A stretch of 64,000 nt of DNA from Haliotis asinina (taxonomy: Eukaryota > Mollusca > Gastropoda > Lepetellida > Haliotidae). Both the position numbers and the translations under genes were made by a program. The first letter of the stretch is position 1. Each line of letters begins with the position of its first letter. Positions 17,001 to 61,258 of the stretch are shown in pieces. Location of the stretch: the NCBI RefSeq assembly GCF_037392515.1, contig NC_090282.1, positions 35,205,054 through 35,269,053 on the forward strand, read 5' to 3'. The notes beneath the pieces were generated by a model. The model saw nothing but the letters and a program-made list of their open reading frames with translations. It did not search any database and had not been told where the DNA came from.

Positions 17001-20000
17001 GTTATCAGTCGTCACACTGAGGGGTGACAAACAGCTGATGGAACAGCATGGCCATATCCTGACTAGCAGGGAACTGTGATGAGGTGCACCTGAAGCATGC
17101 TGGCACTGTTCCACCAGCTGTTTGTCACCTCAAGGTGTGAAAAATCTTATGCATGTTTTGTGCACTTATCTCCAGTTTGATTTATCATTCACTGTTCTCA
17201 TCTGTAACAGATACCAAATGTGTCCTCAGGTTGGTTCCTTTTTTTTGCAGATTAACTGTGACAGATTCGGATGGGGTGACAAATTCCACAACAGCTAATG
17301 TAACATTTATCAAGGGTAGGTAAAGCTTTAAGGGAGGTTTCTAATAACAATATAAGTAAGATCCTTTCATATAGTATATGCACAATTCCAGTAGGGGAAA
17401 ACATGGAGAAGGATGCTGTGTACGATGATTGTGATAATTCTTTAAAGGGATTAAGTCTCATTAGTGTACTCATATATTTTGTCTGCAAACATATTTTTAA
17501 TCACTTGGCATTATGTTTTTAGGATTTGATAAGACATTATAAGTTGTCCACTAGTCACATCTTTGAGTTAAGTGTTGCACATTACAGAGACGGACTACCC
17601 CCCGAAGGCTAACGCAGGGTCTGATGTGGTGATCCACCTCCCTCAGTCCTCTGTGACGCTATACGGGAACGGTAGCACTGATGATAGAGGAATCACTAGC
17701 TATGAGTGGATCAAAAAGGCGGATGATAAACTTGCTGTAGACATGACGGTAAGAGTGTGAGTGATAGAAGATGAGTTAGTGCTGCTTCCAGCAACTTTCT
17801 AATGGGTGGAGAATCAACTTAACACATTGTGACATTGTTCTCATGATAGGTGATTCTGCCCATGAAGGTCCGGTGTAGAATAGGTGTTCAGCGATCCATG
17901 CTTGCCACGAAAGGCATATGCTTGTCATAAAGAGGTGCTAATGGGATCAGGTGGTCAGACTTGCTGACTTGGGTTGACACATGTCATTGGTTCAGAGTTG
18001 TGCAGATCGATGATCATGCTGTTGATTATTAGATTGTCTGATCCAGACTCGATTATTTACAGACTGCTGACATATAGCTTTAATATTGATGTGTTCGACA
18101 TAAAACTACTCAGTCACTTATAGAGGATTCAAACCTCTGAATATCCCTTGCCACAGTCACTATCATGTGCTTGTGTAGTGCTTAGCTAAATGAATGCCTG
18201 TTGCCACCCTGTTTTCCATTTTACCTTTGTGTACCTGTGAACATAAAACTGGGTTGACATCTGCAAGTGTGTCAAGTGTCTTGGGTTGGTGAGTACATTG
18301 ATGGATCAGTGGGTTGGTGGATGAGTTGTCGGTTGTATTGAGATGTATTCCTGTTTACTTCATGCAGGGTACACGGACAGCATTTCTCCACCTGAACAAT
18401 CTGGAGAAGGGAGACTACACATTTACTCTGAAGGTGATGGACAGCGCAGGCAATGTGGCCACAGCTGATGTGCATGTCTTCGTCAAAGCAGGTAACAAAC
18501 ATGCACACAACTTGCCCTGTTAGTCATTTATGTAAAAATGTATTTACTTTCATGAATTCTTATAAGTGACAAACCTCTGTGTTTAGTTTTAATAGTAATG
18601 ATATTGAGTTCAATCTTTAACTTAATCTCAAGCTTTAGTCAAAGTATATACTGGTTAACAGATTCTTAAAGGGTCAAAACAGCAATTGTAACAACATAAT
18701 CGGTAGCTTTGAAGAAATTTCTGAAATATCTGTGACTGTTAATGAAATAATTATCCTTATGTCAGTGACTGCTTTGATGGTTTCTTTTTTCACAAATATT
18801 GAAGTTTAGACTTAATTTTTATTTTACTGATATGTTTTTGTAGAACTTTCAGGTTGACCATACCATAGAACTGAAATAAGGATTGCAAGGAGATGTTCCT
18901 TTCTTTGTAATATTCCTACCACACACTGTGTCTGTGTAACTACACATAATGTTTCAAACATTGTTTGATCTCATACTTATTTGTCCACTGTAGAAACTAA
19001 CAACCCCCCTGTCGCGAGGACAGCAAAGAAGGTGAAGGTCAGTCTTCCCAGGGAGAACCTCATACTGGACGGCAGCAACAGCACAGATGATCAGAAGATA
19101 GCCTCCTATGCCTGGAAACAAAAAGGGTCAGTTCTCTTGGAGTTGCTTTGGGTCAGTATGTGAGTGTCATGGTGACAGGTGGGTGAGTGGGAGGGTGGGC
19201 ATTTTGATAGGTGGGTTGGTGAGTACATTGATGGATCAGTGGGTTGGTGGATGAGTTGGTGGGCTGGTGAGTGCATTGATGGATCAGTGGGTGGGCGTTT
19301 TGATAGGTGGGTTGGTGAGTACATTGGTGGATCAGTGGGTTGGTGGATGAGTTGGTGGGCTGGTGAGTGCATGGGTGGATCAGTGGGTGAGCGTTTCGAT
19401 AGGTGCGTTGGTGAGTACATTGACGAATCAGTGGGTTGGTGGATGAGTTGGTGGGCAGGTGAGTGCATGGGTGGATCAGTGGGTGGGCGTTTTGATAGAT
19501 GGGTTGGTGAGTACATTGATGGATCAGTGGGTTGGCCAGCTTGTCCATGAACAAGTGAGTGAGTATAATGGTTTCATGCCAGGAAGATCATTTATGGTGA
19601 CCCTGGGAATGGACTTGATGGATTCTGCTCGTGACGGGTAACAAGTTTGAGTATTTAGTTTTTAGCATGCGGAAAGAGAGCTACATTAGCTCGGGCCAAT
19701 GTAGCCAGTGCCTTCATGACAACTCTTTGATTTCAGTTCAGATTTAATGAGTGATTATGAAAACATACATTGAAACGTGACTAAATGCTATTAACCAGTT
19801 GTTATTTTTATTCATAAAGTTTGATGTTACTTATGTCTTCAAGAAAGACAATAGTTCATGATACCTGTTCCGTGAGTCAAATGTTTGTCAGTGTGCATCA
19901 GTTTCCACATATTATGTTGTTGTAACTGCATATTTCAGAGGGCCTACACTGTCCATCCAGAATTCTGATCGTGCTGTTGCCATGGGGACAGGGAAGATAG

Positions 20001-23000
20001 AGGTTGGCGAGTACATCTTCACCCTAACTGTGACAGATGAGGAGGGGGCTAGCAGTTCAGCGGACCTCACTGTGACTGTACATGAAAGTAAGGATGCATC
20101 TGCTCTTAGAGAGTGAAATAGTGAAACTGTTATAAAACCTTCCTTGTGATTGGCACACCCCACCTTCCAAACCTAAAATATTGAATTCAATTTGTATCTG
20201 TGAAAATCTGGGTTAGTCTTCAGGAATCCTTGTTTGTCATTAGATGAATGGGATCAGGTGGTCAGACTCGCTGACATCTTTGACACATACTATTAAATCC
20301 GAATATAGATTGATGCTCATGCTGTTGATCACTTAATTTCTGGTCCAGACTCAATTATTTAGACCTCTGTCGTTAGCTTGAATATTGCTGTGTCTGGTGT
20401 AAAGCTACAAACATGATCAAATCCATTTGTCTTGCTGCATTGTTTAATGACCTTGAGTCATATCTGTCATATCACAGCTATTTCAAGTAAATAAGACAGG
20501 ACTCCTCTCACTGAATACATAAGCATACACCTTCATAAGCTTAAGGCTACATACTGACCCCCTCCTGTGCCCACATGGGTGGTGAGGTAGCCAAGTGGTT
20601 GAGGTGTTAAATCATCATGATGGAGATCTGGGTTCAGTTCCCCACAATGTGTGAAACCCTTACTGGTGTCCCCTGCCATGATCTTGCTAAAAGCATTGTG
20701 AAACCATACTCACTCACTCCTATGCCCACTGTATTAGAATTAAGACTTTTCAATTTTAGTTTCCGACTAAAATAATTCATTTCAATATATAAAAACCTAG
20801 CACAAGGAATAGGTATGTTTTATCTTGTTAATTGTAAGCATGTGTACATCAAAAATAGCCGTAAGGTCTCTTCTCATCAATGGCATCACTGGAAGAATTC
20901 TTTTAAACCAGACTCCAACCAGGCTCCAGTAGCTAATGCAGGAGGGGACAAGGTCGTTTATCTCCCCTTGACAACTGTGACACTCGATGGCTCCAAGTCT
21001 CATGATGATGTTGGTATCAAGTCTTACGACTGGGTGCGTGATGAGAAGAGCTTAGCTGCAGGAGTAAGTACAACTACAAATAGAATCAACTACATGATAA
21101 AGACAGTAGTACTGAAATATGTCATTGAAATGTTCAGTTGATGTCCAGGAATCATCAATGTCTTAAATACACAAGATCTTCAAAATGCACACAAAAGACC
21201 GAACCAGGCAGCTTTTTTGGAAATAAATCTTTCAGGGGCAATGATCACCTGTGGCATTCATATTTTGAAACACACTTTGCCCCAGTTGCAGTCACGACTG
21301 GAATACCCTAAATTGTGCATATTGAGGTTCTGTATATGTTGAATGTATAGTGATGAAATTCTCTCTTCTCTTTTGTTTTGGCCTGAGTTAGCAGTCGTAT
21401 TTTGCACTGACATTTAGCCAAAGTGCAGGGCCAACTATACTTGTAAGTAAGCGTTGTCCCCCCTTCCTCCCTTCAGGATGTAGTGAATGGATCCAACCAT
21501 CAGGCTGTGCTGCAGCTCAGCAATGTCGTGGCAGGCCGCTACATATTCAAATTGTCTGTGGTGGATGCAGCAGGGCTCTCCAGCTCAGACACGGCCTCTG
21601 TCATTGTCAAGGAAGGTTGGTATCACATATATGGCCCCTTGCAATTACTTCACTTTGACTAATAGCAGATGTATTATCATACCGATTTGGCAGATATATG
21701 AATCTTCTATTGAATAAATCATTGTCCAGGCTAGATTGTTTTCAAGTGGTATTCAGGGCAACCAGGGCTACCAATTTTAATTCTTTAAATATATAAGTAA
21801 ACTCTTCATCAAAATAGCTACAAGTGATATTTTTTAGACTGGTTCACTTGCTATATAGCTTATGTCTTAATAGGACATATATCTGTAGCAGTTACCATGA
21901 ACACGTTCTCATGCTGGTGTGTTTCTCAGATCCTCACAAAGGTGACCTCATTGAGATGCTGCTTGATGTAGACATTCAACACTTCACCCAGGAGAACAAA
22001 GTGAGTTGACCATATGCTGTGTCGTATGCTCTATGTTACCTTGCAGACAGTCCTAGCATGCTGTTAAAAGCAAAACTATCCAGTCCCTTTGAAAGAGCAT
22101 GATTACTAGCTTTAACCATAAATAATTATCAGATTTAAGAAATGTATTTGTGACAACTCGTGTAATTCAAATATTAACACAAATCCCGATCATTCAGGCT
22201 TGCACCAAGTTAGTCCTGTGTTGTCATGGTAATGAGGTGCTTAATCATATACGTATGGTACAAATAAACACCCAGTTTTAAGATGTGTGTCTGGCTAAAG
22301 AAACTTGAGTGTTAGGCATAACCAGAATTTGAATTACAAGAAAAAGACCACAAACATACTGTGATAATGTTTTCAGACAAAGTAGGAGACATTATATAAC
22401 ATTCCTTGAGATGAGTTATGTTATCTTATGTTTATCTTTATATAACGATCTACAAAGTGGTGTCTGTAAATGATATTCTCCCACAAACCATATTTTGACA
22501 TCCTACAGTGTAAACACACTCACTGAGCAGTATGTTTTTCCATGTCAAGTGTACTGCATGGGAGATCTAGTCACTAGCTTCTTCAGTTTCATTTTGCAGA
22601 GTTATATCCTGTAGCTGTTCAAAAATCTTTTTTAGTGGCAGATTGGAATTCCAGATTTTCCCTGATAATTGTTTATGGTTTATCAGCAATATTAATAGGT
22701 ATCCCAAGATGCTGAGCATATATGACCTGCATTGATTTGTCCTTTCCCCTCAAAATGAAACTGATCTGCCATGATATAACTGAAGTCCAGTTCAGAGATA
22801 CATTAAACGAAACTCTTTGACTGATGTTATCTGCAGAACAACCTGGTGAACCAGCTCCAGCTGCTGCTTCACAAGTCATCACAAGATGGCGACACCATCA
22901 TCAGTATCCAGCACCTGGGGCAGGACTACACATCAGGACAGTGAGTAAACCAAGCTTCACCACTCAGGTCGTCTGTCATGTCTCATCAGTGGATAAAGTG

Positions 23001-26000: not shown

Positions 26001-29000
26001 TGATTGAGTGACACACTGATAAAATATCAGTCATGAAAATACCAGTATCCCTAACTTTTTTGTCCAGTATATTTGATCCCAATGAACAATGTTATCATAA
26101 GCAGTGGAAATAGATAGTCTGTTAATGCATTGAAAATAGCCTTGCTGACTGAATAACTTACTGACTTGTGACCCAAAACATTATTTACGTTTGACAAAAC
26201 AACCTTATTGCCATGTGCAGCTAAACAAAAAATCATAATAATTGATCAAGCAGTTAACTTCCAACATAATCTACTCGGTGATGCTTGACAACACGGGCGC
26301 ATGCACACACAAGCATACACACACAAACATACACACACAAACACACAAACACACACACAAACATGCACACACACACAAACATGCACACACAAACATGCAC
26401 ACACAAGCATGCACACACAAGCATGCACACACAAACATACACACACAAGCATACACACACAAACACACACACACAAACATACACACACAAACATACACAC
26501 AAACATACACACACAAACATGCACACACATTCATATCAAAGAGTAAATATTAATCAGGCTATTGTCTGAATATGGATATTGCTGGGATATTGATAGAAGC
26601 GGCTTTACACTAAACTCACTCATTGTTTGACAATAGTAAGTCTGTGTTGAAAGTACAGGAGTTGATTACAGATTGATCCAGTGATCTCCACCTTGTCCAT
26701 GTTTACACCAGAGTGTCCTGTGTTATATTGGTGTTGGTGTATCCCCTGTTTGCTACCAGTTTAGTTTGCTAACTGTTGTTTACAGGACTTACAGGTACTC
26801 TCCAGTCCCAGTTTATCTGTACGTTCATTTACTCAGCTTTGTTTCATCCGCTTATCATCCCCTTGTTCTTATTCACGGTATCATGTGATCAGCTTAATGT
26901 AATCCATGTGCATGAAAACCTCATGATAGTTATCTAGTGAGAAAAATTTGTGAAGAGACTTCTCTATCACTTGAAAATAGTCAGAGAGTAAGAGGTATGC
27001 CCCTTGATGTGATGTTTTCTACTCCTGCATTGTACACTATCATGTTAAATTGGGACAGTGTGGTAGCCAAGTGATTACTTGTCATGCCAAATACTTGGAT
27101 TTGATTCCCCATTATTATGTGTGATGCCCACTTCCTGTGCCCCGTGCTGTAATATTGCTGGATTAGTGATCAAAATGGTGTAAACCTAAGTCTCACCTTA
27201 TGGTTTGTTAGATTCATTGGTAAGAATGATGTAATTTAGAATATCTGGGTATTTTTACCAGAGTCTCCCTGGAAATGTTAATAAGAGCTTTTGAAGGATA
27301 TGATATTAGTGGTAAAGTTCAGAAAATGAGCATGGATAACATTGACTGATTACATTATGAACTGTGACTGATTATATGCAGTAAGAACAAGGGGAGCCCA
27401 CAGAGTGTATTTTGGTGGATGTTGTAGCACTCTGTGCATGTTGGGTAAGGATTCTTTCCTCTGTCGGCACCTGCCTCATCCCTTTGATCCCTCCTTAACC
27501 TGCACCCGTCTCCCTCATCCACAACCTTCACCAAAAATGTGTCCTTCCCCACTCCCAAGTCATCCCTTCTCTCATCCATAATTTGTCCTTCCTGCTTGGT
27601 CCCAGCTTTTACTGTGTGCTGTGATGGGGATTGTATTTATAGTCTTGTGGTTTGTAACAACTACAGGTTTGTTATGCTTATTGACCTGATCTGTTAGTCT
27701 GTAATTGGTATCATGTTTTGAATGGTGAAGTTTCCAGGTGAAGTTTTGTTTGTAATGTGTAAAACGCTCTATGAATCATTAACAAATTCTTTATTCATAT
27801 GGTACATTTCTTGATCAAGGAAGACTTCAGTCATGAAACTGAGCGATTTCATTATAATGATTTGAAAGGACTAGGCAGAATAAGAGTCCATCTGCTCTTC
27901 TAGAAATGTCAAATCATGAATTTATTGAAACCTTTGTAATACTGGAATACCAGTCACTAGACAATTTGAAATGAACAACCAGGCCCTTTCTCTTTTGTAC
28001 TGTTGCAAGATTTTGGACATCTGACATGATCAAGTGCAAAGTGGGAAGATGAGTTAAGAAATACATGAAGAGACGTGTGTTGAAGTCTGTGACCTCGAAG
28101 TTATTGTACTGTATGTTTATCCTAGGTTTATAGACAATAAAAAATTACCATGGGCCTAAAACAGCTCATCTTCAAAAGCACTCAAAACAAGAATTGGCTG
28201 TCAGGGATTTATGGGGCTTATATTCCTGTGTCCTTTATGCATAAAAATTGAAAAGAGATGCAACCAAATTTACTTGTGCATTTGGAGGAACATAGAAAAA
28301 ATCCAAATACTTTTTGTAAAATTACCAATCAAGTAACATTAGTTATCACTGAGTTTGCTACTAGCTTGGTAATGGTACTGTTTACAATGTGATGTTGTGA
28401 TGATCATGATACATTAAACATAACGAGCACAAAATAATATTTAAGTGTCCGAGATCCCCATTTTGTAGCCCAGGACAACTTAAAATTAAGAGTGTGGGTT
28501 CCAGGGACCCTCAGTTACAGGACTGGAGGTACTGGATTTTATTTAGCTTACCTGTGCATTTTGAGTTCTTATTGTAAAGGATTCTTCTTTGATCTTATGG
28601 ACAAAAGCAGATCTTATCCTGTCTGCAGTTTTACACTATTATCCTGATAATTTTTTGATGCATTGTTATCAGGATGAGTGTATTTGTTCCCTGTGAAACT
28701 GGGATTTGATTAGTTCGACCTCTGCTGACCATGAGTTGATATGTGTGGCTTGTGGTAACATAGGAGTTGATGTGTGTGGCCTGGGTTAACACGTGAGTTG
28801 ATGTGTGTGGCCTGTATTAACTTGGGAGTTGATGGGTGTGGATGTGTGTGGCCTGTGGTAACACGGGAGTTGATGTGTGTGGCCTGTGTTAACACGTGAG
28901 TTGATGTGTGTGGCCTGTGTTAACATGGGAGTTGATGGGTGTGGATGGGTGTGACCTGTGGTAACATGGGAGTTGATGTGTGTGGCCTGTGTTAACACGT

Positions 29001-32000
29001 GAGGTGATGTGTGTGGCCTGTATTAACAGAGTTGATGGGTGTGGATGTGTGTGACCTGTGGTAACATGGGAGTTGATGTGTGTGGCCTGTGTTAACATGT
29101 GAGTTGATGAGTGTGGTCTGTATTAACATGAGAGTTGATGGATGTGGATGTGTGTGACCTGTGGTAACACGTGAGTTGATGTGTGTGGCCTGTATTAACA
29201 TGGGAGTTGATGGGTGTGGATGTGTGTGACCTGTGGTAACATGGGAGTTGGTGTGTGTGGCCTGTGTTAACACGTGAGTTGATGTGTGTGGCCTGTATTA
29301 ACATGAGAGTTGATGGGTGTGGATGTGTGTGACCTGTGGTAACACGGGAGTTGATGTGTGTGGCCTGTGTTAACACGTGAGTTGATGTGTGTGGCCTGTA
29401 TTAACATGAGAGTTGATGGGTGTGGATGTGTGTGACCTGTGGTAACATGGGAGTTGATGTGTGTGGCCTGTGTTAACACGTGAGTTGATGTGTGTGGCCT
29501 GTATTAACATGGGAGTTGATGGATGTGGATGTGTGTGACCTGTGGTAACATGGGAGTTGATGTGTGTGGCCTGTGTTAACATGGGAGTTGATGGGTGTGG
29601 ATGTGTTAACATGGGAGTTGATGAGTGTGGCCTGTATTAACATGAGAGTTGATGGGTGTGGATGTGTGTGACCTGTGGTAACATGGGAGTTGATGTGTGT
29701 GGCCTGTGGTAACATGGGAGTTGATGTGTGTGGCCTGTATTAACATGGGAGTTGATGGGTGTGGATGTGTGTGGCCTGTGTTAACATGGGAGTTGATGTG
29801 TGTGGCCTGTGTTAACACGTGAGTTGATGAGTGTGGCCTGTATTAACATGAGAGTTGTTGATGGGTGTGGATGTGTGTGGCCTGTGTTAACATGGGAGTT
29901 GATGTGTGTGGCCTGTGTTAACATGTGAGTTGATGGGTGTGGATGTGTGTGACCTGTGGTAACATGGGAGTTGATGTGTGTGGCCTGTGTTAACATGGGA
30001 GTTGATGGGTGTGGATGTGTGTGACCTGTGGTAACATGGGAGTTGATGTGTGTGGCCTGTGTTAACATGTGAGTTGATGAGTGTGGTCTGTATTAACATG
30101 GGAGTTGATGGGTGTGGATGTGTGTGACCTGTGGTAACATGGGAGTTGATGAGTGTGGCCTGTGTTAACATGGGGGTTGATGTGTGTGGCCTGTGTTAAC
30201 ATGTGAGTTGATGGGTGTGGATGTGTGTGACCTGTGGTAACATGGGAGTTGATGTGTGTGGCCTGTGTTAACACGTGAGTTGATGTGTGTGGCCTGTATT
30301 AACATGGGAGTTGATGGGTGTGGATGTGTGTGACCTGTGGTAACATGGGAGTTGATGTGTGTGGCCTTTGGTAACATGGGAGTTGATGTGTGTGGCCTGT
30401 GTTAACATGGGAGTTGATGTGTGTGGCCTGTGTTAACATGTGAGTTGATGAGTGTGGCCTGTATTAACATGGGAGTTGATGGGTGTGGATGTGTGTGGCC
30501 TGTGTTAACATGTGAGTTGATGAGTGTGGCCTGTGTTAACATGTGAGTTGATGTGTGTGGCCTGTGTTAATATGTGAGTTGATGGGTGTGGATGTGTTTG
30601 ACCTGTGGTAACATGGGAGTTGATGTGTGTGGCCTGTGTTAACATGTGAGTTGATGTGTGTGGCCTGTGTTAACATGTGAGTTGATGAGTGTGGCCTGTA
30701 TTAACATGGGAGTTGATGGGTGTGGATGTGTGTGACCTGTGGTAACATTGGAGTTGATGTGTGTGGCCTGTGTTAACATGTGAGTTGATGTGTGTGGCCT
30801 GTGTTAACATGTGAGTTGATGGGTGTGGATGTGTGTGACCTGTGGTAACATGGGAGTTGATGTGTGTGGCCTGTGTTAACATGGGAGTTGATGTGTGTGG
30901 CCTGTATTAACATGGGAGTTGATGGGTGTGGATGTGTGTGACCTGTGGTAACATGGGAGTTGATGTGTGTGGCCTTTGGTAACATGGGAGTTGATGTGTG
31001 TGGCCTGTGTTAACATGGGAGTTGATGTGTGTGGCCTGTGTTAACATGTGAGTTGATGAGTGTGGCCTGTATTAACATGGGAGTTGATGGGTGTGGATGT
31101 GTGTGGCCTGTGTTAACATGTGAGTTGATGAGTGTGGCCTGTGTTAACATGTGAGTTGATGTGTGTGGCCTGTGTTAATATGTGAGTTGATGGGTGTGGA
31201 TGTGTTTGACCTGTGGTAACATGGGAGTTGATGTGTGTGGCCTGTGTTAACATGTGAGTTGATGTGTGTGGCCTGTGTTAACATGTGAGTTGATGAGTGT
31301 GGCCTGTATTAACATGGGAGTTGATGGGTGTGGATGTGTGTGACCTGTGGTAACATTGGAGTTGATGTGTGTGGCCTGTGTTAACATGTGAGTTGATGTG
31401 TGTGGCCTGTGTTAACATGTGAGTTGATGGGTGTGGATGTGTGTGACCTGTGGTAACATGGGAGTTGATGTGTGTGGCCTGTGTTAACATGGGAGTTGAT
31501 GTGTGTGGCCTGTGTTAACATGTGAGTTGATGGGTGTGGATGTGTGTGACCTGTGGTAACATGGGAGTTGATGTGTGTGGCCTGTGTTAACATGTGAGTT
31601 GATGTGTGTGGCCTGTGTTAACATGGGAGTTGATGTGTGTGGCCTGTGTTAACATGGGAGTTGATGTGTGTGGCCTGTGGTAACATGGGAGTTGATGTGT
31701 GTGGCCTGTGGTAACATGGGAGTTGATGTGTGTGGCCTGTGTTAACGTGGGAGTTGATGTGTGTGGCCTGTGTTAACATGTGAGTTGATGAGTGTGGCCT
31801 GTATTAACATGGGAGTTGATGGGTGTGGATGTGTGCGACCTGTGGTGACATGGGAGTTGATGGGTGTGGCCTGTGTTAACATGTGAGTTGATGAGTGTGG
31901 CCTGTATTAACATGGGAGTTGATGGGTGTGGCCTGTGGTAACATGGGGGTTGATGTGTGTGACCAGTGGTAACATTGGAAGTGATGAGTGGATTCTATGT

Positions 32001-38800: not shown

Positions 38801-40446
38801 GACCACAGTCAGTGCTTTGCTACCTGTTTCTATACCTAGGTTCATGAGATTAGCTGTGAGTGTCACACAAAAGTTGGTAGAGAAAGACTTGTGTCATCTG
38901 ACCTCATCCACAATATGAACATATTATCAGTGTTCACTGCACAAAGAACTGCATTGAATATTAATCCAATTACTACTAACATAACTTTGTGAGATGTGAC
39001 ACTCATTTAGATGTTAAGTTACACCTACAACACAATCTTAGACTTTAAGTAACTGACAGTTTTTGGGGTGAGGACAGGTCTTGTTTGTAAAGACACACAG
39101 GCGGACCCAGTCACCCCCTCATAAAATGGATGAAACTGAACTGTGCAAGCCCCCTTTTTCAAACGCTGTATCCACCATAGAAGACATTGTATCCTTTTAG
39201 TTAGTTTAGTTTTGTATTCACTTCAGTCTTTTTAAGAGTTGGTGTCAGTTTAGTCAATTTAGTTCTAGTCTGTTTGTGACTAAATTACAGTAATCTGCAT
39301 GGGATGAATGTAAAATGATCTCTGTGTTGAAGGTAGATAGGGTTTACTTGTGGGCATGCATGCTTGGTTCATCATCTGGCTGGTTGTGTTCCAGGTGTAC
39401 CATACTACAGAACAGAGAACAAAATATGAATGTCGTTGATTTTATATAATGGTTGTATTTATGTTTATATTTTAATTATAGATGTGTGATTACTAATCCA
39501 TTGTATAGAATCTAATCAGTATGCTAGACAGCTCATTATTCTAAACAGAAGTGAAATACTAAAGTATGTAGATGTTTGTGTTCATTTGTTACTGACAGTC
39601 GTAAATTAATACATGATGATATACACTTGATGCCACTATTAAAGAGTCTACTGAAACTCCAGATTTTAATATTTTCACATTATGTGCTCATTGCATAATG
39701 ACAACAAATAGGTGAAACATAATCCATGTTCACAGCATATTATTCTATTACTGTACAGATCACAGTGTGTAATAATTGGGGACAAACATGTATAAAGCAT
39801 GGTACAGCCAAAATCAGATTTGCTTTTTCCCTGAAGAAAATTTAAGAAGTTGATATTTCGTCTTTCAGGAATCATTGGAACTACTCCTTCAGAAAGTTGT
39901 GATTTATGTTCCTTTTCTGCACATTTGTAATATTATGTTTTCTCCATGACAAATTTAATGTGTTTTTTTACTCTAGTTACAGAGCATCAGTCTTGCTCTG
40001 AAGGAATGTCCAGGGAGCATATCAATTTATTTCAACCAAAGAGCTAGATATTAGCAAAGCTTGAATTGACACATAATCACAGAGTAAAGGATAACACAAT
40101 CAACATCCCAGTGATAACTATTTGTATAATAACAAATCGTTTGTAGCCTTTCTCTGTGCAACTTTTAGTTGAAGGCACTGTCATGAAAAGCATTCCATTA
40201 TTTTGTCCTTGCACATGACTCTGTTTAATATGCCACAGACCAATCAGCCTGTGTACCAAATGCGTGTCATGCCTCTCGCTACTCAACCGTCTGGTGTATA
40301 TTGTACTGCTTGGTTACTGTGTTGCTCAAACAGTGTGCTCCAGTTTGTTTTTACCTATACATTTCATATATGTTTATGTGTTGATTGTATGATTTCCACT
40401 GTACAGATGTGTTAACTATAAATAAATCAGGGACCAAATAAACTCT
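32832..40446 (+). other. Probable 3' UTR and intergenic sequence after the KIAA0319-like gene
   Basis: No exon or gene was recognised on either strand over this stretch. AATAAA signals on the plus strand occur at 34015-34020, 35457-35462, 40421-40426 and 40437-40442, so the 3' UTR could be anywhere from 1.2 to 7.6 kb. A short TA/TG microsatellite sits at 35197-35222. How much is transcribed cannot be told from sequence. Confidence 0.5.
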
Positions 40447-42166: not shown

Positions 42167-42366
42167 TCATATGGAAGACCCACCTGGAACACAGTGCTGT
42201 GGTTCTGGAGTCCACATCCCATCTCTACACAGTACGGTGGTGATGTTTTGTCCCCCAGTGAAGTCCCAGCCCGTCCTGCAGGTCAGGACAACTGATGTTC
42301 CTGGAGTAGCCTGGCAACTGGAGGTCAAGGCGTTGGTCAGCAGCCTCAAACAAGGGCAGCTGCTGG
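42167..42366 (-). CDS. Lectin exon 10: sushi/CCP domain, probable last exon
   Basis: It encodes SSCPCLRLLTNALTSSCQAT, GTSVVLTCRTGWDFTGG, TTVLCRDGMWTPEPQHC and VPGGSSI, then TGA. The C..W...C end is the sushi signature. A donor-like CCAG|GTGGGT lies 8 codons before the stop, so an alternative downstream end is possible. Confidence 0.8.
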
Positions 42367-45300
42367 CTGGACAAAAGACACACTATACTTAAGCGCGTAA
42401 TGAACGGTAATAAATATATTAAACCATTATGGGCCTTGATGTTCGAGGCTCTGTTAGCGCTAAGATAATCGTAAGTGCCATACATTAACATAAACATATG
42501 CCTATCTTAGTGCTAAGAGAGCTTTGAAAATCTAGGAACTGAAAAAGTAAAATTTACTTCCTTTAGTTATTGACTGAAACGTTCTGAAACAGGTTTTTGC
42601 TTCTCTTTCTATATGTAAGTTTCTATTTAGAGGCTAAAGAAGTTACCTGCTCATATACATTATCATCGAGATAAAGTAACTGATAAATAAAGCATTTTCA
42701 AGCTGCAATGGTTGGGGTCAATTCCAGGTTTGATTGTATGTATTTATATTTTTCATGGAAATAAAAAATATGGCTGGGTATATTGAAATTTGATGTTTAT
42801 TAAGGTGAGCTACAGATATCTTTGGTACATGCTAATAACATATTAAGACAAAAATGATTACGATAAGTATTTGATTAAACCTTACTTCCAATTCAACGTT
42901 TACAGATGTAATAGTTCTTACCTTCATCTTCAGAATAGTTGGGGCTACATGTATATATGTAGGAGCGGGAAGACATTGGAGATGTGAAAGTCTCAGAGGA
43001 AGCTCGTGATGTCACAGGAGCAGTCGTCATGTCAGTGGGGGACTCGGCGCACGATGGGCTGACAGATCCCGATGTCCTGGGAAGTAGATCGCCACTGTCT
43101 CTTGTACTGGAGCTGGTGATCTCAGAGTAGACTCTAGTGTCTCTAGTGTTTCCATCTGTAGTGTGGCTGACTGGTTCTGATATTCTGGGAAGCAGATCGC
43201 CATTGCCTGTTGTGCTAGAGCTAGTGATTTCAGAGTAGACTCCAGTGCCTCCCGAATCAACATCTACAGTATAGCTGACAGATCCCGATGTCCTGGAAAG
43301 TAGATCGCAACTGTCTGTTGTACTGGAGCTGGTGATCTCAAAGTGGGGTACAGAGTCTTTAGAGTTACCATCTATAGTTTGGCCTCTATAGATGGCATGT
43401 TTGGAGGCCAATGCAGATGTCGGTATTGTGTCTGGGTGGTGTGTGGCGTGAACAGCCTCTGAGACAGGACTGACCATGGATGTCAGTATCGTGGTTGATT
43501 GAGTATTCTTACCGAAGAGCGAGGAAGGACTTACTGACTGTTCATGTAAAGCTGCCAACTGTTGCCTTGTAATTAGTGAGCCGAAGCCTATACTGGACGG
43601 ATCTAAAGACCGAGGATTTGTTGGTTTACTACTGCTTGGATCTACCCGACCCGGGAGACTATGGACCGTATCTGATGTTGATTCAGAATCCAACTGTGTT
43701 GACAAATCCATGCCACTTGGTATCACCAGCGTGGAAGTAGTCCGAACAGATAGTGTTGATGCTGAGATAGACAGTGACCTTGAAACATCGTAAGATGTAT
43801 ACCTAACAGATTCCGGTTGTAATTTCGAGAAATCTTGGGTGACCGAATCAGTACTAACGACTCGTCTTTGCTTTGATGAAGAAAATGATGTCGGACTTTG
43901 GGTTTGAGATGTGCTTGATGTGACAGACGTTTCAAGATCGGATTCTTTGCCTAAAGAAAAAGAATGTAGTTTCTATCATTTTAATAACATGACATTGTGA
44001 AACAATGATTACGCCAATAATAAGTGGCACATCGTATTTTATATCCAATGTTTAACCACAAGTTTATCAATTGTCTCCAATAATTCTACTTGCCACAAGC
44101 AGATTGTGTTAAAGCCTCTTGTCCGTTGTCTCGTGACACCCGCAGCAGAAGAGTGTCGTGTGTGTTGATCCCATTGTACAGAAACTGGTCACAGTCTGTC
44201 GCAAGTTCCTTATCTTCCGCCTTGTCTGTGTCTGTGGAAGTCGAATAAGCTGTTTACAGTTACATGTATCGGCATAATGGGCACAATTACGCTGACTCGC
44301 TGACTTTAACAGTTTTAGAAATGTAGATATCATGGTCAACTAGTAAGTGAGGAGTGAAGGGGTAGGTGACCAAGCAACCACCTGCAGATATGTACAACTT
44401 CTGCAAACGTACATGCACCATAGACAAAGCATCTGATCTGTGACGAGATCTATGACGTGTTGGGAGAACTACAGTTTGCTGTGAGGGCTATGTGACATGC
44501 TGTAAAATCAACACAAACTGAAGCACAAAATACCGACGGCCTGACCAACCTTAGTACTCCCTGGAACACAATTCATTACAGTCTGAGCAATGTTCCTATG
44601 GTTAAGACCTTTTCTTGCCCACTTACCCACATTGTACCACAGCCCGAAGTCCCCTCCTGCACACTTCTGGTCTTCGTGACCGGAACAGGAAGTATTACAG
44701 TGGTCAGGTGTCATCAAATCCACCGAGGCTGGCATTTCTGTGACACAGTAGCAGTCATCACCAGACACCACGGCGAGCTCACTCAGGTTCCCCCGGCACA
44801 GTTCTTTACACAACAAAGCAGTCATGTCATCACTGTCAACAATATGCTCCAGTTCCATAGACGTGAGATGGAGCTCCCTGCAGCCTCTGAAACCTAAGGA
44901 AGAATTCATGTAGCGAAGAACAACAATATAACCATGTGCGACTCATCTGTATGAATCCTCATGTGCTGTTAGAGAACTTACATTTAGTTTAAGATATTAT
45001 CGAAAAATGAATTTGTTAGTTAGGAGCATTATGTCCTTAAAGTCCCATTATAGATGATTTTATTACTAATAGTCAGCTTGCAAAGTGCACAACTCCATCA
45101 TATAATGTATGCCCACAACTTTACCAAAATATTATCATGGTTAAGTATGGGCGCCATTTTAGTTGTCAGCCTCCTTCTCGTATACAAAAAAAAGATAACT
45201 TTGACGCGACAGAAGGTTAACAATCACCATGTTATCCTACCGGATACCCATTCACAGCTCATTGCCAGGCAAACATTTGCCTCCAAACCAGAATAGATCT

Positions 45301-46071
45301 TGCAATATAAATTATATGTGTATCAAACTCTCTGTCTTTATCTTGAATTAAGATGCCTACCACGTTCCTGTTTGCAGATGTATCCCCATGTGGTGCTTGG
45401 AGTTGTGACACAGTCTCTGAGCATGGCACTTTCATCATTCCTGACGAAGCAGCACATAGTAGTAGCAGTACACAGATTGGTGAAGGACGGGTTGTTGTCA
45501 AACAGCACTGGGTCCACCCAACGTAGGGAACCTGACAGAGTGACACCAGTCAGACCAACTAGCCACTGATCCACAGGAGCAAAGAACGGAGATCCTGAAA
45601 CAAGACCTTTGCGTTTGTATTGACTATAAAGGAAGACGGGGCATCATCTTCCTGGCCATTTCCAAAACATACATAGGGTAAATTAAAGAACACTTCAAGA
45701 GGCAATACATCCAGTCATCGTTTGCATCAGTTGAAATAATTAAGGACAAAATCACATGTTGATGAACAAATATCCGTTGTCATATGCAACAAATTGTCAA
45801 AACCACATGCAATCCTTGATCGATCAAATCAACCGCCAAAATGAAAGGTTCTGACTATAAGTAAAGCGTAAACAAATCACGAAAACAAGTATATATGATA
45901 CGATATGATACGAACACAGCCTGACAACATTGTCTCATACTCCCAATAAATGTCTGGATGGTTGTTAAGAAAAGAAGGAGAAATGTTCCACGCTTCAGAA
46001 AGAAAATCACCGTGTTCCAGGATGAAATATTTCTGTATGATCCCAAATTTGATCTTTAGAAAGTTTTATAC

Positions 46072-46126
<55 letters not shown>

Positions 46127-49100
46127 TGTGTGTGTGTATATTCAGTAATCAGCATTAAAATGGGTACATGATTAACTTTGCAAGCATACAGAGTCTAGAG
46201 GTTTCAAGATATTTATATATGTTTGCAGACTTCGAAGATTGGGAACCTCGTATTGTGGTGGCGATGAAGTCCAATTCATCCTGTGATATTACAGACGTGA
46301 GGTAACCGCCCCCCTCGTTGAAACAACCACCATTGTAGACACTGAAGACGTTGGGTGTTGCCACGACGAACTGGTAGAAGTTGCCCCTCCAATATACCCA
46401 GTCTTTTGGGGCGTATTCTAGGCGGGGGACAGCGTTCACTTGCAAATCTAAAAAGATTTTTTTTGTAAGGTTGTGTTGAAAATTTATGCATGCTTTTCTA
46501 AAGTGACATATACATTTTAGACCTTGATCTCACAATCAATACATGTATACTTAAAATCATGATCGGTAGAGTCACAGTTAGAACCTGTATAGTCACACCT
46601 GTATAGTCACAGTCCGTACCTGTATAGTCACAGTCAGTGCATGTATAGTCACAGTCAGCACATGTATAGTCACACCTGTATAGTCGGTCACTAAATGCAT
46701 TGTCACACCTGTATATTCACAGTCATCACCTGTATTGTCACACCTTTGTAGCCACAGTCAGTACCTGTATAGTAGCAGTTGCGAGTGGATCGTGTGTTGC
46801 CCTCATCACGATGCAACAGGTAAGGTCCGGGGATACGCACTCCCTGTTTGTACAGATCTGCACAGCTCCCGGCAACTTCTTCATACCGGCCTGTACACAT
46901 GTATACATATAATTCAGAACTGGTGACAATCACAGTGCTCATTTTTCTTTTACTTTAGTGTCACCAAATTGTTTCAGAGATATACTATTGTAAACATCTT
47001 TCTAATTTCCATCTGCTCTAACCCACCGAACTATTACGGCTTAAACGTTACATTTATATAATTATTGTATTAAAATTGTATTAAAAGGCGTACTACTGGT
47101 GATATTAAACCATACATCCGGTTTCTCCGTCAATATTCGGTTGCTTATAGTAGAATTAAACGTTTGTCCTTCTCTTGGTTTTACTTTTAAAATAGAAATT
47201 TCAAACCATTTTGATTAAATACCCCCTGTACCACTGGCGCCAACGTACCCACATCCAGTAAAGTGAGATACTGTCCTACTACGTCCCCACATGTCTGAGC
47301 CATGTTTCCGGAACACGCGCTGTAACACCGTCTGAAGGAGGTCCTCGACGCTAGCGGTATATTCTGATTGATGAAGCAGTAGCACTGCCCCCTCCAAACA
47401 GCGCCCATGGTGACGTGCTGACCCCGACACACCTGCATACACAACTGCAGGGTCAGGGTGTCGGTCTCCAAGGGAGCCACTGTGCTTAGATATTTGGCGA
47501 AGTACCAAGCATTGTAACAGCCTGTGAAACCTGACAGAAATCAGAAAAGCGATGACCACAATGTTGATGAGCTGATGGGTACTGGATGATAAATTATGCT
47601 TTTATTAAATGAATCAACGAATGGATGTTGCGATAATTCTTAATGTTTACTAAGTAGTCGTAGTTCAAAATCATCAATACATATTTTATGGTTCATGGAT
47701 CTCTTGATTGTCTTGTTTGTTTACAGGCCGCGCGCGGTTGTACGTTTTGGGGCAAATTGTGTGAATTGCAGATGCTGGAGGTAGGGCATAACATATACTG
47801 GACAAAAATAGTTAGGGATATATGTAAATTTGAAATTATGAATAATGATCTATTTATTCAGTCACACACTGATGAAAAGGAAAATGATTAAAATACCATT
47901 ATCCCTAGCTTATTCTGCCCAGTATACTTACACTTAACACAAATACATACTGTCATCACTGCCTTACGTTTGTCCGAATATACAATTTTCATGGCTATTT
48001 TGCCCTTCAGACAAAACATAATTTGTTTCTGGGGATAATAAACACGGGTCTTCTACTGACGTTATATGTTTTACACTTGAGTGTACAGTATTCAAGTCAG
48101 ATCATGGACACCCAAATTGCTCGGTCGAGAGATCCCTTTGAACACTGATGTGGTTCATATAAGCTGCATGAATATAGAAAACAGGGCCATACAGAATGAC
48201 GGTTACCAGTGACTTAGTCGTTTGGGATTTGGGCACATCATATCATAACACACTCATTCGTATCGAGGAAAGTATCATCTTCCATAAAAGCACATATATT
48301 TCAGACAAAACATTTCAGTCTAGAGAAAGATATCCTACACACCTCGGCTCTTCTGGCAGATAAAAGCATAGCTGACACCGCAGTTGACGTTAAATAAACC
48401 TCTGTGATGAGTCCTGAAGATAGCGCACCGGCCACTAGAAGGTTGTGGGTTGTGATCTGCCCACACAGAGTCATTAAACAGGGAGCCGTCTAGCCATAAG
48501 AACACACCTGTGTCCCAGGGGTCTGTCACGCCCAGAAGGACCTGGGAAACGCCCATGGATGTGATGATAGGGGAAATGTAATGTTGTAACACATCCTGAC
48601 TAGCAGACAGCAGTTCGGACTCAACGTGTCTGCAGATGTCGTCTGCTGCTTGCAGTGTCTTCTTGTCGGGAAATACCTTAACGCATCTCTCGTTAGGGAT
48701 CGCCCACCAACCTTGCGGACAGACAGCAGAACCTGCAGAATAGAGAAAACTATACCACGGCTGGACGTTGCAGGAATGATTAAACGCCAGTCGACATGGG
48801 TACAATGTGTGAAGCCCGTTTCTGGTGTCCGCCGTGATATTGCTGGAATATTGGAATATTGATAAAGCGGCGTAAAACAACACATATTAAAAACATCAAA
48901 GACCAGACGATAATAATCTCGACTATCCAAAAACATAAATCCCATTGAGTCGAAAAGGTAAACTCGCGCTGAATTTAATCGAATGGACCACCTGGCGTTG
49001 ATACCAGATGGTAAGCATGTCCTGCCTAAGTCGCTTTGAATGGAATCCGCAGATTTGACAGTCGCTCTGGTGTCGACATTGACAGCGAATTCAATGGTAC

Positions 49101-50056
49101 ACAATGTTCATTATTATACTGGAATTATCTAAAAAGAGAAGTTCAGCTTTACTGGTTGGTATAAATCTGAGAACTTAGTAGGAGCCCTAAAGGTCCTCCT
49201 GTTAGAATTGATCTTCAGCAACCAATGCTTGTCGTAAAAAGCAACAAGCGGGATTTGGTGGTGAGCTGTGACGTGACTGTTGCATGTCATCGTATCCAAA
49301 TTGCGTACATCGATTCTCATGTCAGTCACTGGATTGTATGGACCAGACACGACTGTTTATAGACTGGCATGTTCCCGAAATATTGCTGAGTGTGGCTATG
49401 AACAATAACCAACGAACATATTTCGTAGATACATAACTATGACAAACTGGATATCTCGCCCACGATGCTAGGTTTCATGAAGATCACAATTCTTCCAAGA
49501 GGAATGTGACTTGTGACTGAAGAACCAGAGCCCTTATTCTCGAAACATTCGTAGCCCTAAGAATTCGTAACTTTGATCGTACCCAATGTGTTACGAATAG
49601 GCCTAAGAAGTTCATGGGGCTACGAACGTTCGAGAATAACTAGCCAGAGCCACTAGAGGCTTACGGGACTTTACGAGCTGAGGAACTGATGCAGCACGGG
49701 GCCGAAGCAGGAGGGTGTGTACGTAGCTAGCAAAATCACGTTCACCCCTCTGGTGATAGATGCCAAGAATCTATCGTTACAAGCAGGAAGGCTATGTTGT
49801 AGATAATCCCTGTTACAAGTTAATACAATGTATTTCCGTGAAATATTGGCACGACAATTAGATACGTATATATAGTGAATGCAAAAGGTCTCCTGGAGTA
49901 TGGTAAGCCCGTTGGCTAGACAAGATCTGTTGTGACGAGTGAGTTGATTCACAGTTACTTACCTACCCCCTCGCTGCGTGTTACGAAGAGTGTGAAAATT
50001 CCAACGCTGCACAAAAGGAACACAGCTAATTCCTTGATCGTGCTATTATATAGCAT
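42167..50056 (-). CDS. Mosaic secreted lectin: CTLD-WSC-CTLD-WSC-mucin-sushi, 10 exons
   Basis: Exons, 5' to 3' on the minus strand: 50056-49963, 48732-48343, 47530-47249, 46890-46765, 46447-46247, 45594-45361, 44893-44627, 44249-44097, 43950-42922, 42366-42167. Every intron is phase 1 and the sum is 2976 nt (991 aa + stop). The order is signal peptide, C-type lectin (about aa 32-161), WSC (162-255), a 42-aa two-Cys module (256-297), C-type lectin (298-442), WSC (443-531), a 51-aa segment (532-582), a Ser/Thr-rich mucin-like region (583-925) and sushi/CCP (926-991). WSC and C-type lectin domains bind sugars in other proteins, so a role in surface recognition or mucus is an inference. I do not recognise a named orthologue. 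No transmembrane helix is seen; the gene may end here or continue through a possible donor in the last exon. Confidence 0.85.
42922..43950 (-). CDS. Lectin exon 9: Ser/Thr-rich mucin-like region
   Basis: A single 1029-nt exon rich in Ser and Thr with few cysteines, likely O-glycosylated and acting as an extended stalk. It contains three tandem 36-aa repeats (about 43050-43372), each with EITSSST...GDLLPR.S..VS. The donor GAAG|GTAAGA at 42921 is strong; without splicing, translation would run nine codons to a stop. Confidence 0.85.
43050..43372 (-). repeat. Coding minisatellite in the mucin exon, 108 bp x 3
   Basis: The core encoding EITSSST starts at 108-bp intervals on the minus strand (anchors near 43112, 43220 and 43328). 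Each unit keeps the frame. Confidence 0.9.
44097..44249 (-). CDS. Lectin exon 8: unrecognised 51-aa segment
   Basis: It encodes STSTDTDKAEDKELATDCDQ, FLYNGINTHDTLLLRVSRDN and GQEALTQSAC. It has two cysteines and no family I recognise. The donor must be at GCTT|GTGGCA to keep phase 1; a GTAGAA site 5 bp later would break the frame. Confidence 0.65.
44627..44893 (-). CDS. Lectin exon 7: WSC domain 2
   Basis: It encodes GFRGCRELHLTSMELEHIVD, LLCKELCRGNLSELAVVSG, DDCYCVTEMP, then CNTSCSGHEDQKCAGGDFGL. The last stretch (C.G....CGG-like) is the hallmark of WSC domains. Donor GTGG|GTAAGT. Confidence 0.92.
45361..46447 (-). CDS. Lectin exons 5-6: C-type lectin domain 2
   Basis: Exons 46447-46247 and 45594-45361. 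They encode KDWVYWRGNFYQFVVATPNV, CFNEGGGYLTSVISQDELDF, then APVDQWLVGLTGVTLSG and RWVDPVLFDNN, ending TTWGYICKQE. It is divergent and lacks a recognisable sugar-binding triplet. Unlike domain 1 it is split by an intron. Exon 5 uses a weak donor (CGAG|GTTCCC), the least certain junction in the gene. Confidence 0.82.
46070..46137 (+). repeat. (CGTG)n microsatellite
   Basis: An uninterrupted GCGTGCGTGCGTGCGTGC run ending in GTGTGTGTGT. It lies in intron 5 of the lectin gene. Confidence 0.97.
46580..46790 (+). repeat. Minisatellite, about 21 bp unit
   Basis: Units of CACCTGTATAGTCACAGTCA with variants, about nine copies. Its edge runs into the 3' end of lectin exon 4 (46765). Confidence 0.85.
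46765..46890 (-). CDS. Lectin exon 4: short two-cysteine module
   Basis: A 126-nt exon encodes RYEEVAGSCADLYKQGVRIP, GPYLLHRDEGNTRST and RNCYY. The SCADLYKQG...GPYL stretch faintly resembles the first hairpin of fibrinogen-like domains, but the rest of that fold is missing. Acceptor GTACAG and donor ACAG|GTACTG are good and both phases are 1. Confidence 0.7.
47249..47530 (-). CDS. Lectin exon 3: WSC domain 1
   Basis: It encodes GFTGCYNAWYFAK, then LQLCMQVCRGQHVTMGAVW, GQCYCFINQN, and CYSACSGNMAQTCGDVVGQY. The spacing of C..C, CyC, C...C and C(G)G is that of WSC domains. The exon ends at GTGG|GTACGT; reading through would add about 10 residues and then a poor donor. Confidence 0.88.
47794..47926. 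mobile_element. Tc1/mariner-type MITE, copy 2
   Basis: TATACTGGACAAAAATAGTT plus AGGGATA on the left is mirrored by TATCCCTAGCTTATTCTGCC plus CAGTATA on the right. About 133 bp, in intron 2 of the lectin gene. It matches the copy at 25941-26071 in both ends and interior. Confidence 0.8.
48343..48732 (-). CDS. Lectin exon 2: C-type lectin domain 1
   Basis: One 390-nt exon encodes the whole domain. It opens CPQGWWAIPNERCVKVFPDK, includes VSQVLLGVTDPWDTGVFLW, then ADHNPQPSSGRCAIF, and ends NVNCGVSYAFICQK. Six cysteines fit a long-form fold. The WND calcium motif is changed to FNVNC and there is no clear EPN or QPD triplet, so classical calcium-dependent sugar binding is doubtful. Confidence 0.9.
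48785..48882 (+). repeat. tRNA-derived SINE, 3' part
   Basis: ACAATGTGTGAAGCCCGTTT, GGTGTCCGCCGTGATATTGC and GCGGCGTAAAACAACAC are the 3' half of the tRNA-derived SINE. It starts about 50 bp upstream (gene sense) of lectin exon 2. Confidence 0.75.
49188..49395 (+). repeat. SINE family A copy, decayed
   Basis: Contains TTCAGCAACCAATGCTTGTC, AGCGGGATTTGGTGGTGAG and CACTGGATTGTATGGACCAG, and ends near ATATTGCTGAGTG. In lectin intron 1. Confidence 0.7.
49533..49643. mobile_element. hAT-like MITE with 8-bp target duplication
   Basis: Near-palindromic: CTTATTCTCGAAACATTCGT plus AGCCCTAAG on the left pairs with GGGGCTACGAACGTTCGAGA plus ATAA on the right. It is flanked on both sides by CCAGAGCC (49525-49532 and 49644-49651), an 8-bp duplication as made by hAT transposases. 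In lectin intron 1. Confidence 0.75.
49963..50056 (-). CDS. Lectin exon 1: signal peptide
   Basis: The ATG at 50056 starts MLYNSTIKELAVFLLCSVGI, continuing FTLFVTRSEGV. A hydrophobic core (AVFLLCSVGIFTLFV) follows a short polar start. The donor GTAG|GTAAGT gives phase 1, which matches exon 2. An alternative donor 4 bp earlier (GTAGGT) would be phase 0 and would not fit. Confidence 0.75.
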
Positions 50057-60331: not shown

Positions 60332-61258
60332 CTAAGAGCGGCCAAAGGCTTCAAGAGATGACGTCGAACCGCGCGATGAAGACTGAGCAAGGCCGGTGGT
60401 GGAAGAATGATGACCCACCAATGAGGAGGTTGTAAACAGTTTGTACCAGCCAATCACAATGTTGCTAAGATCGAGATCTGACAAAAGGATCTGAGCCACT
60501 CCCATAAACACTTTCTTGTCCATCCGACCATAATCGCCCCACACGGTTACCTACAAACAAAAGGAACATTCCGTATCAAAAGTATTGTATTTCTTAATTT
60601 CTGACAACACATCCAAATTCAGTTCAAAAGCAGAAAATCATATGTTGCATGAAAACTGTAACAAAATCTACAATGTTTACCTGTAATATTTTGCCAATGT
60701 ACGACTCAGTAAAGACAAGCTGCTGCTGGTAGAGTGGATCTAGTGTTCTTCTGGCTGTGGTTGTCTTCTGTTTTTCTACACAGGTCTTGCCATCAATGAG
60801 ATAAACCTTCACATAAGGCGCTGCAAAACATGGATAACATATTTTCTCAGAAATTCATACCTTCTTAATTCATATATCTTCCCTTTCACAAAGTGTGATG
60901 TGTTGTCTGATTTAACTCATCAAATTTTAGTTGAACAAAAAAAGAAATTGCATCTAGTAACTTGAATTGCTATTCCAAACTGCATATTCCTGTTTAAGAT
61001 GTTCTTTAAACATAACTATTTTCGTGGATATACTTCGTACCTGGAAGAACTCTGGCTCCAGGTTTTGATAACAATCCACGGGCGCGGATGACCTCAACCT
61101 CTAGATGACCTTTCCTGTCATACAAACCAAGCTGAATCTCGCCAAGGCACGGAGATCCAAGGACCTGTCTGCCAACCAACTGGGATGGCCCCAACCCATC
61201 TACAAAATCTCCAAACTGGCCCTCAGGACCAAGACGTGCATGGGTTGGTAGCCAAAGT
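60332..61258 (-). CDS. Rim: RIM C2B domain and C-terminus
   Basis: Exons 61258-61041, 60820-60681 and 60550-60332. The first carries GPEGQFGDFVDGLGPSQLVG, typical of the sequence just before C2B, and the first strands. The last ends SSSRGSTSSLEAFGRS. The length and end are close to those of vertebrate RIM1/2. Confidence 0.95.

Follow-up and report, generated by a model that had tools for sequence, protein, structure and literature searches.

A candidate Haliotis asinina gene for an extracellular mosaic protein with two C-type lectin-like and two WSC domains

On the minus strand of a 64,000-nucleotide stretch of the Haliotis asinina genome (contig NC_090282.1 of assembly GCF_037392515.1; "the window" below means this whole analysed stretch), we describe what is probably one intact gene of an animal. 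It would encode an extracellular mosaic protein with a role in recognition or adhesion, built by exon shuffling and by partial tandem duplication of 1-1 exons. The predicted protein would consist of a signal peptide, two copies of a unit made of a C-type lectin-like domain (CTLD), a WSC domain and a short cysteine module, then a Ser/Thr-rich stalk, which is probably O-glycosylated, and, close to the C-terminus, a sushi module. The protein would most likely be secreted or exposed at the surface. There, the stalk would hold the CTLDs and the WSC domains at a distance from the cell, and these domains would bind their ligands, glycans or proteins, without the calcium-dependent sugar site usual in CTLDs.

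The gene model has ten exons, running from 50056 to 42167 (Table 1), and its spliced reading comprises 986 open codons, rather than the 991 amino acids given in a preliminary description of this DNA. That description had also placed all nine introns in phase 1, and here we agree with it: phase 1 is found at nine of nine introns with the frame open throughout, and all eight internal exons have lengths divisible by three. The GC content is 0.502 over the ten exons vs. 0.378 over the nine introns. Around the Ser/Thr-rich exon, the stop-to-stop frame of 359 codons is the longest in the window, and among 60 simulated 64-kb sequences (Markov-1) the longest frame had 239 codons. Judged by its sequence, the gene is believable, and the reading of its style of assembly appears sound; we infer that its transcripts are spliced as modelled.

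Table 1 Exons of the gene model and two associated features, in positions of the window.
Feature	Positions	Strand	Description
Exon 1	49963..50056	-	Start codon and signal-peptide-like segment (by eye); ends in phase 1; ORF
Exon 2	48343..48732	-	CTLD1, single 1-1 exon; Pfam Lectin_C E 6.8e-7 alone; PDB CTLD matches
Exon 3	47249..47530	-	WSC1, single 1-1 exon; Pfam WSC E 2.4e-9 alone
Exon 4	46765..46890	-	Short Cys module, 1-1 exon
Exon 5	46247..46447	-	CTLD2, first half; donor GTTCCC 0.3 bits, acceptor 1.5 bits
Exon 6	45361..45594	-	CTLD2, second half; range of the langerin alignment
Exon 7	44627..44893	-	WSC2; Pfam WSC E 3e-11 alone; PDB 7pz2_A E 0.015
Exon 8	44094..44231	-	Short module 2, with a weak likeness to exon 4; donor of the GC-AG type
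Exon 9	42922..43950	-	Ser/Thr-rich stalk, 344 residues, about three 36-residue repeats
Exon 10	42167..42366	-	Sushi module to TGA 42169-42167; 42184-42366 if donor 42184/42183 is used
Candidate exon 11	40077..40177	-	Putative C-terminal tail, hydrophobic, ending in a stop; AATAAA lies about 45 bases further
Minisatellite	46566..46773	.	Includes the exon 4 donor; donor-like sites recur from there into intron 4; Tandem Repeats Finder

Both lectin-like domains are recognised by sequence comparison. Lectin_C (PF00059) matches the whole product in two stretches (E 2e-8, 35.3 bits vs. a cutoff of 22.6), and the CTLD1 exon alone, at 30.4 bits, is also above the cutoff; among PDB sequences, CTLD1 matches snaclecs, aggrecan and CLEC4F. 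CTLD2 alone matched no Pfam family, and with product residues 1-598 as the query it matched langerin chains in the PDB over residues 307-398 (E 7.1e-5 to 4.6e-4). A model of CTLD1 alone was poor, with a mean pLDDT of 41.6. C-type lectins that bind sugars in a calcium-dependent manner carry an EPN or QPD motif plus WND. The strings EPN, QPD and WND are absent from both CTLDs, and in the alignment of CTLD1 to CLEC4F, NPQ replaces QPD and FN-V replaces WND, which upholds the earlier claim that the lectin domains lack a calcium/sugar motif.

The WSC family (PF01822) likewise matches the whole product in two stretches (E 2.8e-17), and the two exons alone score 37.7 (WSC1) and 43.8 bits (WSC2) vs. 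a cutoff of 27.8. In the PDB, WSC2 matched chain 7pz2_A, which we take to be yeast Wsc1, and Kremen chains at E 1.2-1.6; a scan of viral contigs with WSC2 returned no relative. Eight cysteines are present in both domains, and at the CGG position, located by eye, WSC1 has CGD and WSC2 has CAGG; aromatic residues number 12 of 95 in WSC1 and 5 of 90 in WSC2. According to the available part of PMC9024836, eight conserved cysteines and the CGG motif are the hallmark of the domain, its fold is that of the PAN domain, and carbohydrate binding has been reported for fungal WSC proteins. Surface aromatics matter in yeast Wsc1, and its structure, as far as the same text describes it, has no evident glycan pocket (PMC9024836); this makes it less likely that the WSC pair binds sugars, although the aromatic counts and the missing pocket are no more than leads. 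The earlier ideas that ligand binding rests on the WSC pair and that the product is a mucus protein found no support in our analysis. Our proposal that the CTLD and WSC domains may bind a ligand draws on analogy, in that binding to Wnts has been reported for the corresponding two domains, CTL and WSC, of polycystin-1 (PMC9672506, in part).

The order of the domains reads better as a CTLD-WSC-short module unit present twice, with a weak likeness between the two short modules. After each CTLD there follow a WSC domain and then a 1-1 exon, 126 bases long in one unit and 138 in the other, whose two cysteines lie approximately 30 residues apart. WSC1 and WSC2 align with a raw score of 95 (tblastn E 1.3e-5) and CTLD1 and CTLD2 with a raw score of 59 (tblastn E 0.33), and in both comparisons 0 of 2000 shuffles scored as high. 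From these alignments we infer, fairly firmly, a duplication of the CTLD-WSC block. The short modules of exons 4 and 8 are 28% identical, and their score of 32 was reached by 62 of 5000 shuffles in one direction and by 45 of 5000 in the other. When the six frames were tiled into 1015 windows, each no longer than 47 residues, three windows scored at least 32, two within the stalk repeats of the gene itself and one within a transposase frame, and the exon 8 window of that tiling scored 29. Exon 4 scores higher against a repeat of the Ser/Thr stalk (43058-43344), at 43, a value reached by 2 of 2000 shuffles in one test and 4 of 2000 in another, than against exon 8, at 32. What had been called an unknown segment, exon 8, weakly resembles the short module of exon 4.

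Exon 4 had no match in Pfam (E up to 10), the PDB (E up to 10) or NCBIfam (E up to 1), and within the same limits exon 8 matched only PDB chain dTor_3x57R (E 0.14). A possible resemblance between the short module and the beginning of fibrinogen-like domains was considered and set aside, having no sequence support. A model derived from the aligned modules, in which a short helix is followed by a hairpin of two strands, was poor (mean pLDDT 57.8), and neither it nor the model of CTLD1 serves as evidence here. Within the 64-kb window, tblastn of the product found internal repeats only and no second copy of the gene.

If intron phases were independent, at phase frequencies of 0.25-0.3, nine phase 1 introns out of nine would have a chance of 4e-6 to 2e-5, which is the wrong expectation because the shuffled domains of metazoans belong to class 1-1, as do CTLD, WSC and sushi. 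Class 1-1 is the class of the domain types of metazoan exon shuffling according to the available part of PMC8001218, and the proto-splice-site argument given there predicts glycine codons at such junctions; in our model, the junction codon is glycine in six of nine cases. Exon shuffling of 1-1 modules, which the preliminary description took as the setting of this gene, fits; however, it is usual for animal extracellular mosaics, and it does not distinguish this gene from them.

Exon 9 encodes the stalk, whose repeats form a 108-bp array at 43058-43344. Secreted mucins have long repeats rich in Pro, Thr and Ser. The earlier label of mucin is generous for this segment, which has 37.5% Ser and Thr and 6.1% Pro. 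The idea that the stalk repeats are under purifying selection was not supported: in the three pairs, the differing codons were divided 7/18, 0/17 and 7/16 between synonymous and non-synonymous. The sushi exon alone matches Sushi (PF00084) with E 0.0015 and 19.3 bits, just below the cutoff of 20.7, and the family is not listed for the whole product. In the domain chain first proposed, Pfam thus supports the two WSC and the two lectin domains, whereas the sushi module lies below the cutoff and its exon may not be the last.

The 3′ end of the gene can be read in two ways. Directly after the sushi codons lies a phase 1 donor-like site, CAG/GTGGGT, which at 11.0 bits is above every donor of the model; on this strand, 5 of 3803 GT score at least 11.0 bits. 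The 986-residue reading ends at a TGA 14 bases beyond this site, and from the sequence the stop may be intronic. We give slightly less than an even chance to a secreted protein with the sushi module as its end, as in the preliminary description, which would serve in mucus or haemolymph as a soluble recognition protein. The in-frame stop after the sushi codons favors such an ending, as do the next 9.1 kb of the strand, in which no Pfam family was found at E up to 1, whereas the strong donor-like site just ahead of the stop and the distance to the nearest A(A/T)TAAA hexamers, approximately 1.0 and 1.4 kb below the stop (41135 and 40758), weigh against it. The 9.1 kb above the gene on the same strand were equally free of Pfam families at this limit; run as a control over the gene itself, the flank scan detected the WSC domains and CTLD1 and missed CTLD2 and sushi.

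It is possible, although we consider it rather doubtful, that a tenth phase 1 intron (42183-40178) joins the sushi module to a further exon at 40177-40077, which would give a protein of 1014 residues with a hydrophobic tail, GPI-anchored or otherwise held in the membrane. The donor-like site of such rare strength would supply the 5′ border of this intron, but it can also be the relic of an older exon border. A phase 1 acceptor of 5.5 bits, 2.0 kb further on, would open candidate exon 11 and yield VPSTKSCTEKGYKRFVIIQIVITGMLIVLSFTL, followed by a stop and then by AATAAA. Among the acceptors of at least 5 bits (686 on the minus strand and 514 on the plus strand), this is the sole one whose reading ends in such a hydrophobic tail with a poly(A) hexamer close by; on the plus strand, the tail without the hexamer follows a further two acceptors. 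Approximately 0.01 such candidates would be expected by chance among the 39 acceptors of at least 5 bits in the 4 kb below the sushi module, but this expectation is too favorable, because the filters were chosen after the candidate had been seen, and the 5-bit limit would lose three of the nine acceptors of the gene model. Moreover, the GC content of candidate exon 11 (0.347) is lower than that of all other exons and close to that of the introns. A strict search for downstream exons (acceptor of at least 6 bits, donor of at least 4) found none, at an acceptor limit that five of the nine model acceptors would fail, and looser limits gave 35 internal candidates, none of which appeared domain-like by eye.

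The splice sites of the model were scored with a rough consensus matrix entered from general knowledge. Seven of the nine donors reach at least 5.5 bits, including that of exon 1 (TAG/GTAAGT, 10.3 bits), and the exceptions are those of intron 5 (GTTCCC, 0.3 bits) and intron 8 (GCAAGT, 3.5 bits); acceptors range from 1.5 to 8.6 bits, with three of nine below 4 bits. The intron 5 donor is nearly random, as 1574 of the 3803 GT on the same strand score equally well or better, and with a donor of 0.3 bits this junction rests on the continuity of the lectin domain across it. Other phase 1 donors around the start of intron 5 score 4.2 bits or less; those upstream would shorten CTLD2, and use of one further down, after 46190 (1.1 bits), would lengthen the reading by 19 codons. 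The two poor donors both fall in the second half of the gene, as might be expected if the model had joined parts of two genes, or old copies of exons, with CTLD1-WSC1, for example, transcribed apart from the rest, but phase 1 and the frame are kept at every junction over 986 codons and across nine introns of 143-1230 bases, and we regard such a merger as very unlikely.

The reading of an intact mosaic gene can be compared with several known systems. Kremen carries kringle and CUB domains, Wsc1 bears its WSC domain on a membrane sensor, and to our knowledge neither has a CTLD. The eight-cysteine WSC domain is what Kremen and fungal Wsc1 have in common with our product (PMC9024836, in part). The extracellular region of human PKD1 also pairs WSC and CTLD, according to the available parts of two papers on the polycystin-1/sea urchin REJ family (PMC9672506, PMC1934368). 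Unlike polycystin-1, the product is small and has a Ser/Thr stalk, and none of LRR, PKD, REJ, GPS and PLAT was found in it with Pfam at E up to 10; it is therefore not a member of the polycystin-1 family.

A further likeness, in domain content, is to bivalve proteins. CTLD proteins with extra domains (CTLDcps), including WSC and sushi, have already been published from bivalves (PMC10140915, in part); like our product, they combine CTLDs with further domains, WSC and sushi among them, in orders specific to particular lineages, and the likeness drawn here is one of domain content rather than of exact order. In the part of that paper available, the bivalve-specific CTLDcps are uncharacterised and an immune role is presumed by its authors (PMC10140915). 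A mussel transcriptome that lists a WSC protein among gill transcripts (PMC4581086, in part) was the sole paper found to combine the terms WSC domain, C-type lectin and mollusc. Our literature search found no paper with PF01822 together with PF00059 and none with the exact domain order of the product. Our analysis does not establish the novelty of that order, and the protein is a mosaic in a known style of animal surface proteins.

Ten neighboring frames of the window were scanned, four of which had no match at E up to 0.1; the others point to an animal genome. On the plus strand, parts of a K319L-like PKD-domain gene lie at 15242-21138, where four frames match, three of them above the cutoff. 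The minus strand at 60627-60854 encodes a C2 domain of a RIM-type synaptic gene, with RIM1 the closest in the PDB (E 1.1e-15). The window also contains a 298-codon open frame for a Tc1/Tc3-type transposase at 8517-9410 and a minisatellite array of approximately 3.2 kb, with periods of 31 and 103 bases, at 28733-31990.

A different minisatellite includes the donor of exon 4 (Table 1). Between 46765 and 46599, there are seven donor-like sites scoring 5.5 to 9.5 bits, vs. a strand-wide density of approximately 4 per kb for donor-like sites of at least 5 bits. One alternative donor for exon 4, after 46744 (7.9 bits, phase 1), would add seven in-frame codons and one cysteine; of the others, two are open but in phase 0, and three lie beyond stops. 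If the main reading of the gene is true, the repetition of these sites beside exon 4 would make it simple to test whether splice variants of lectin genes can arise from minisatellites.

In its boldest form, which we consider quite unlikely, the gene would encode a GPI-anchored receptor with two CTLD-WSC units on a glycosylated, repeat-bearing stalk, which would recognise ligands without calcium-site lectin chemistry and in which the minisatellite, by multiplying the exon 4 donor, would tune the length between the units. If the main reading of an intact mosaic gene is true, a compact recognition protein, pairing CTLD and WSC in the manner of polycystin-1 but lacking its other parts, would have been made from a duplicated two-domain unit by way of phase 1 introns. 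Should that reading not hold, the gene would be one more member of the large CTLD repertoire of animals.
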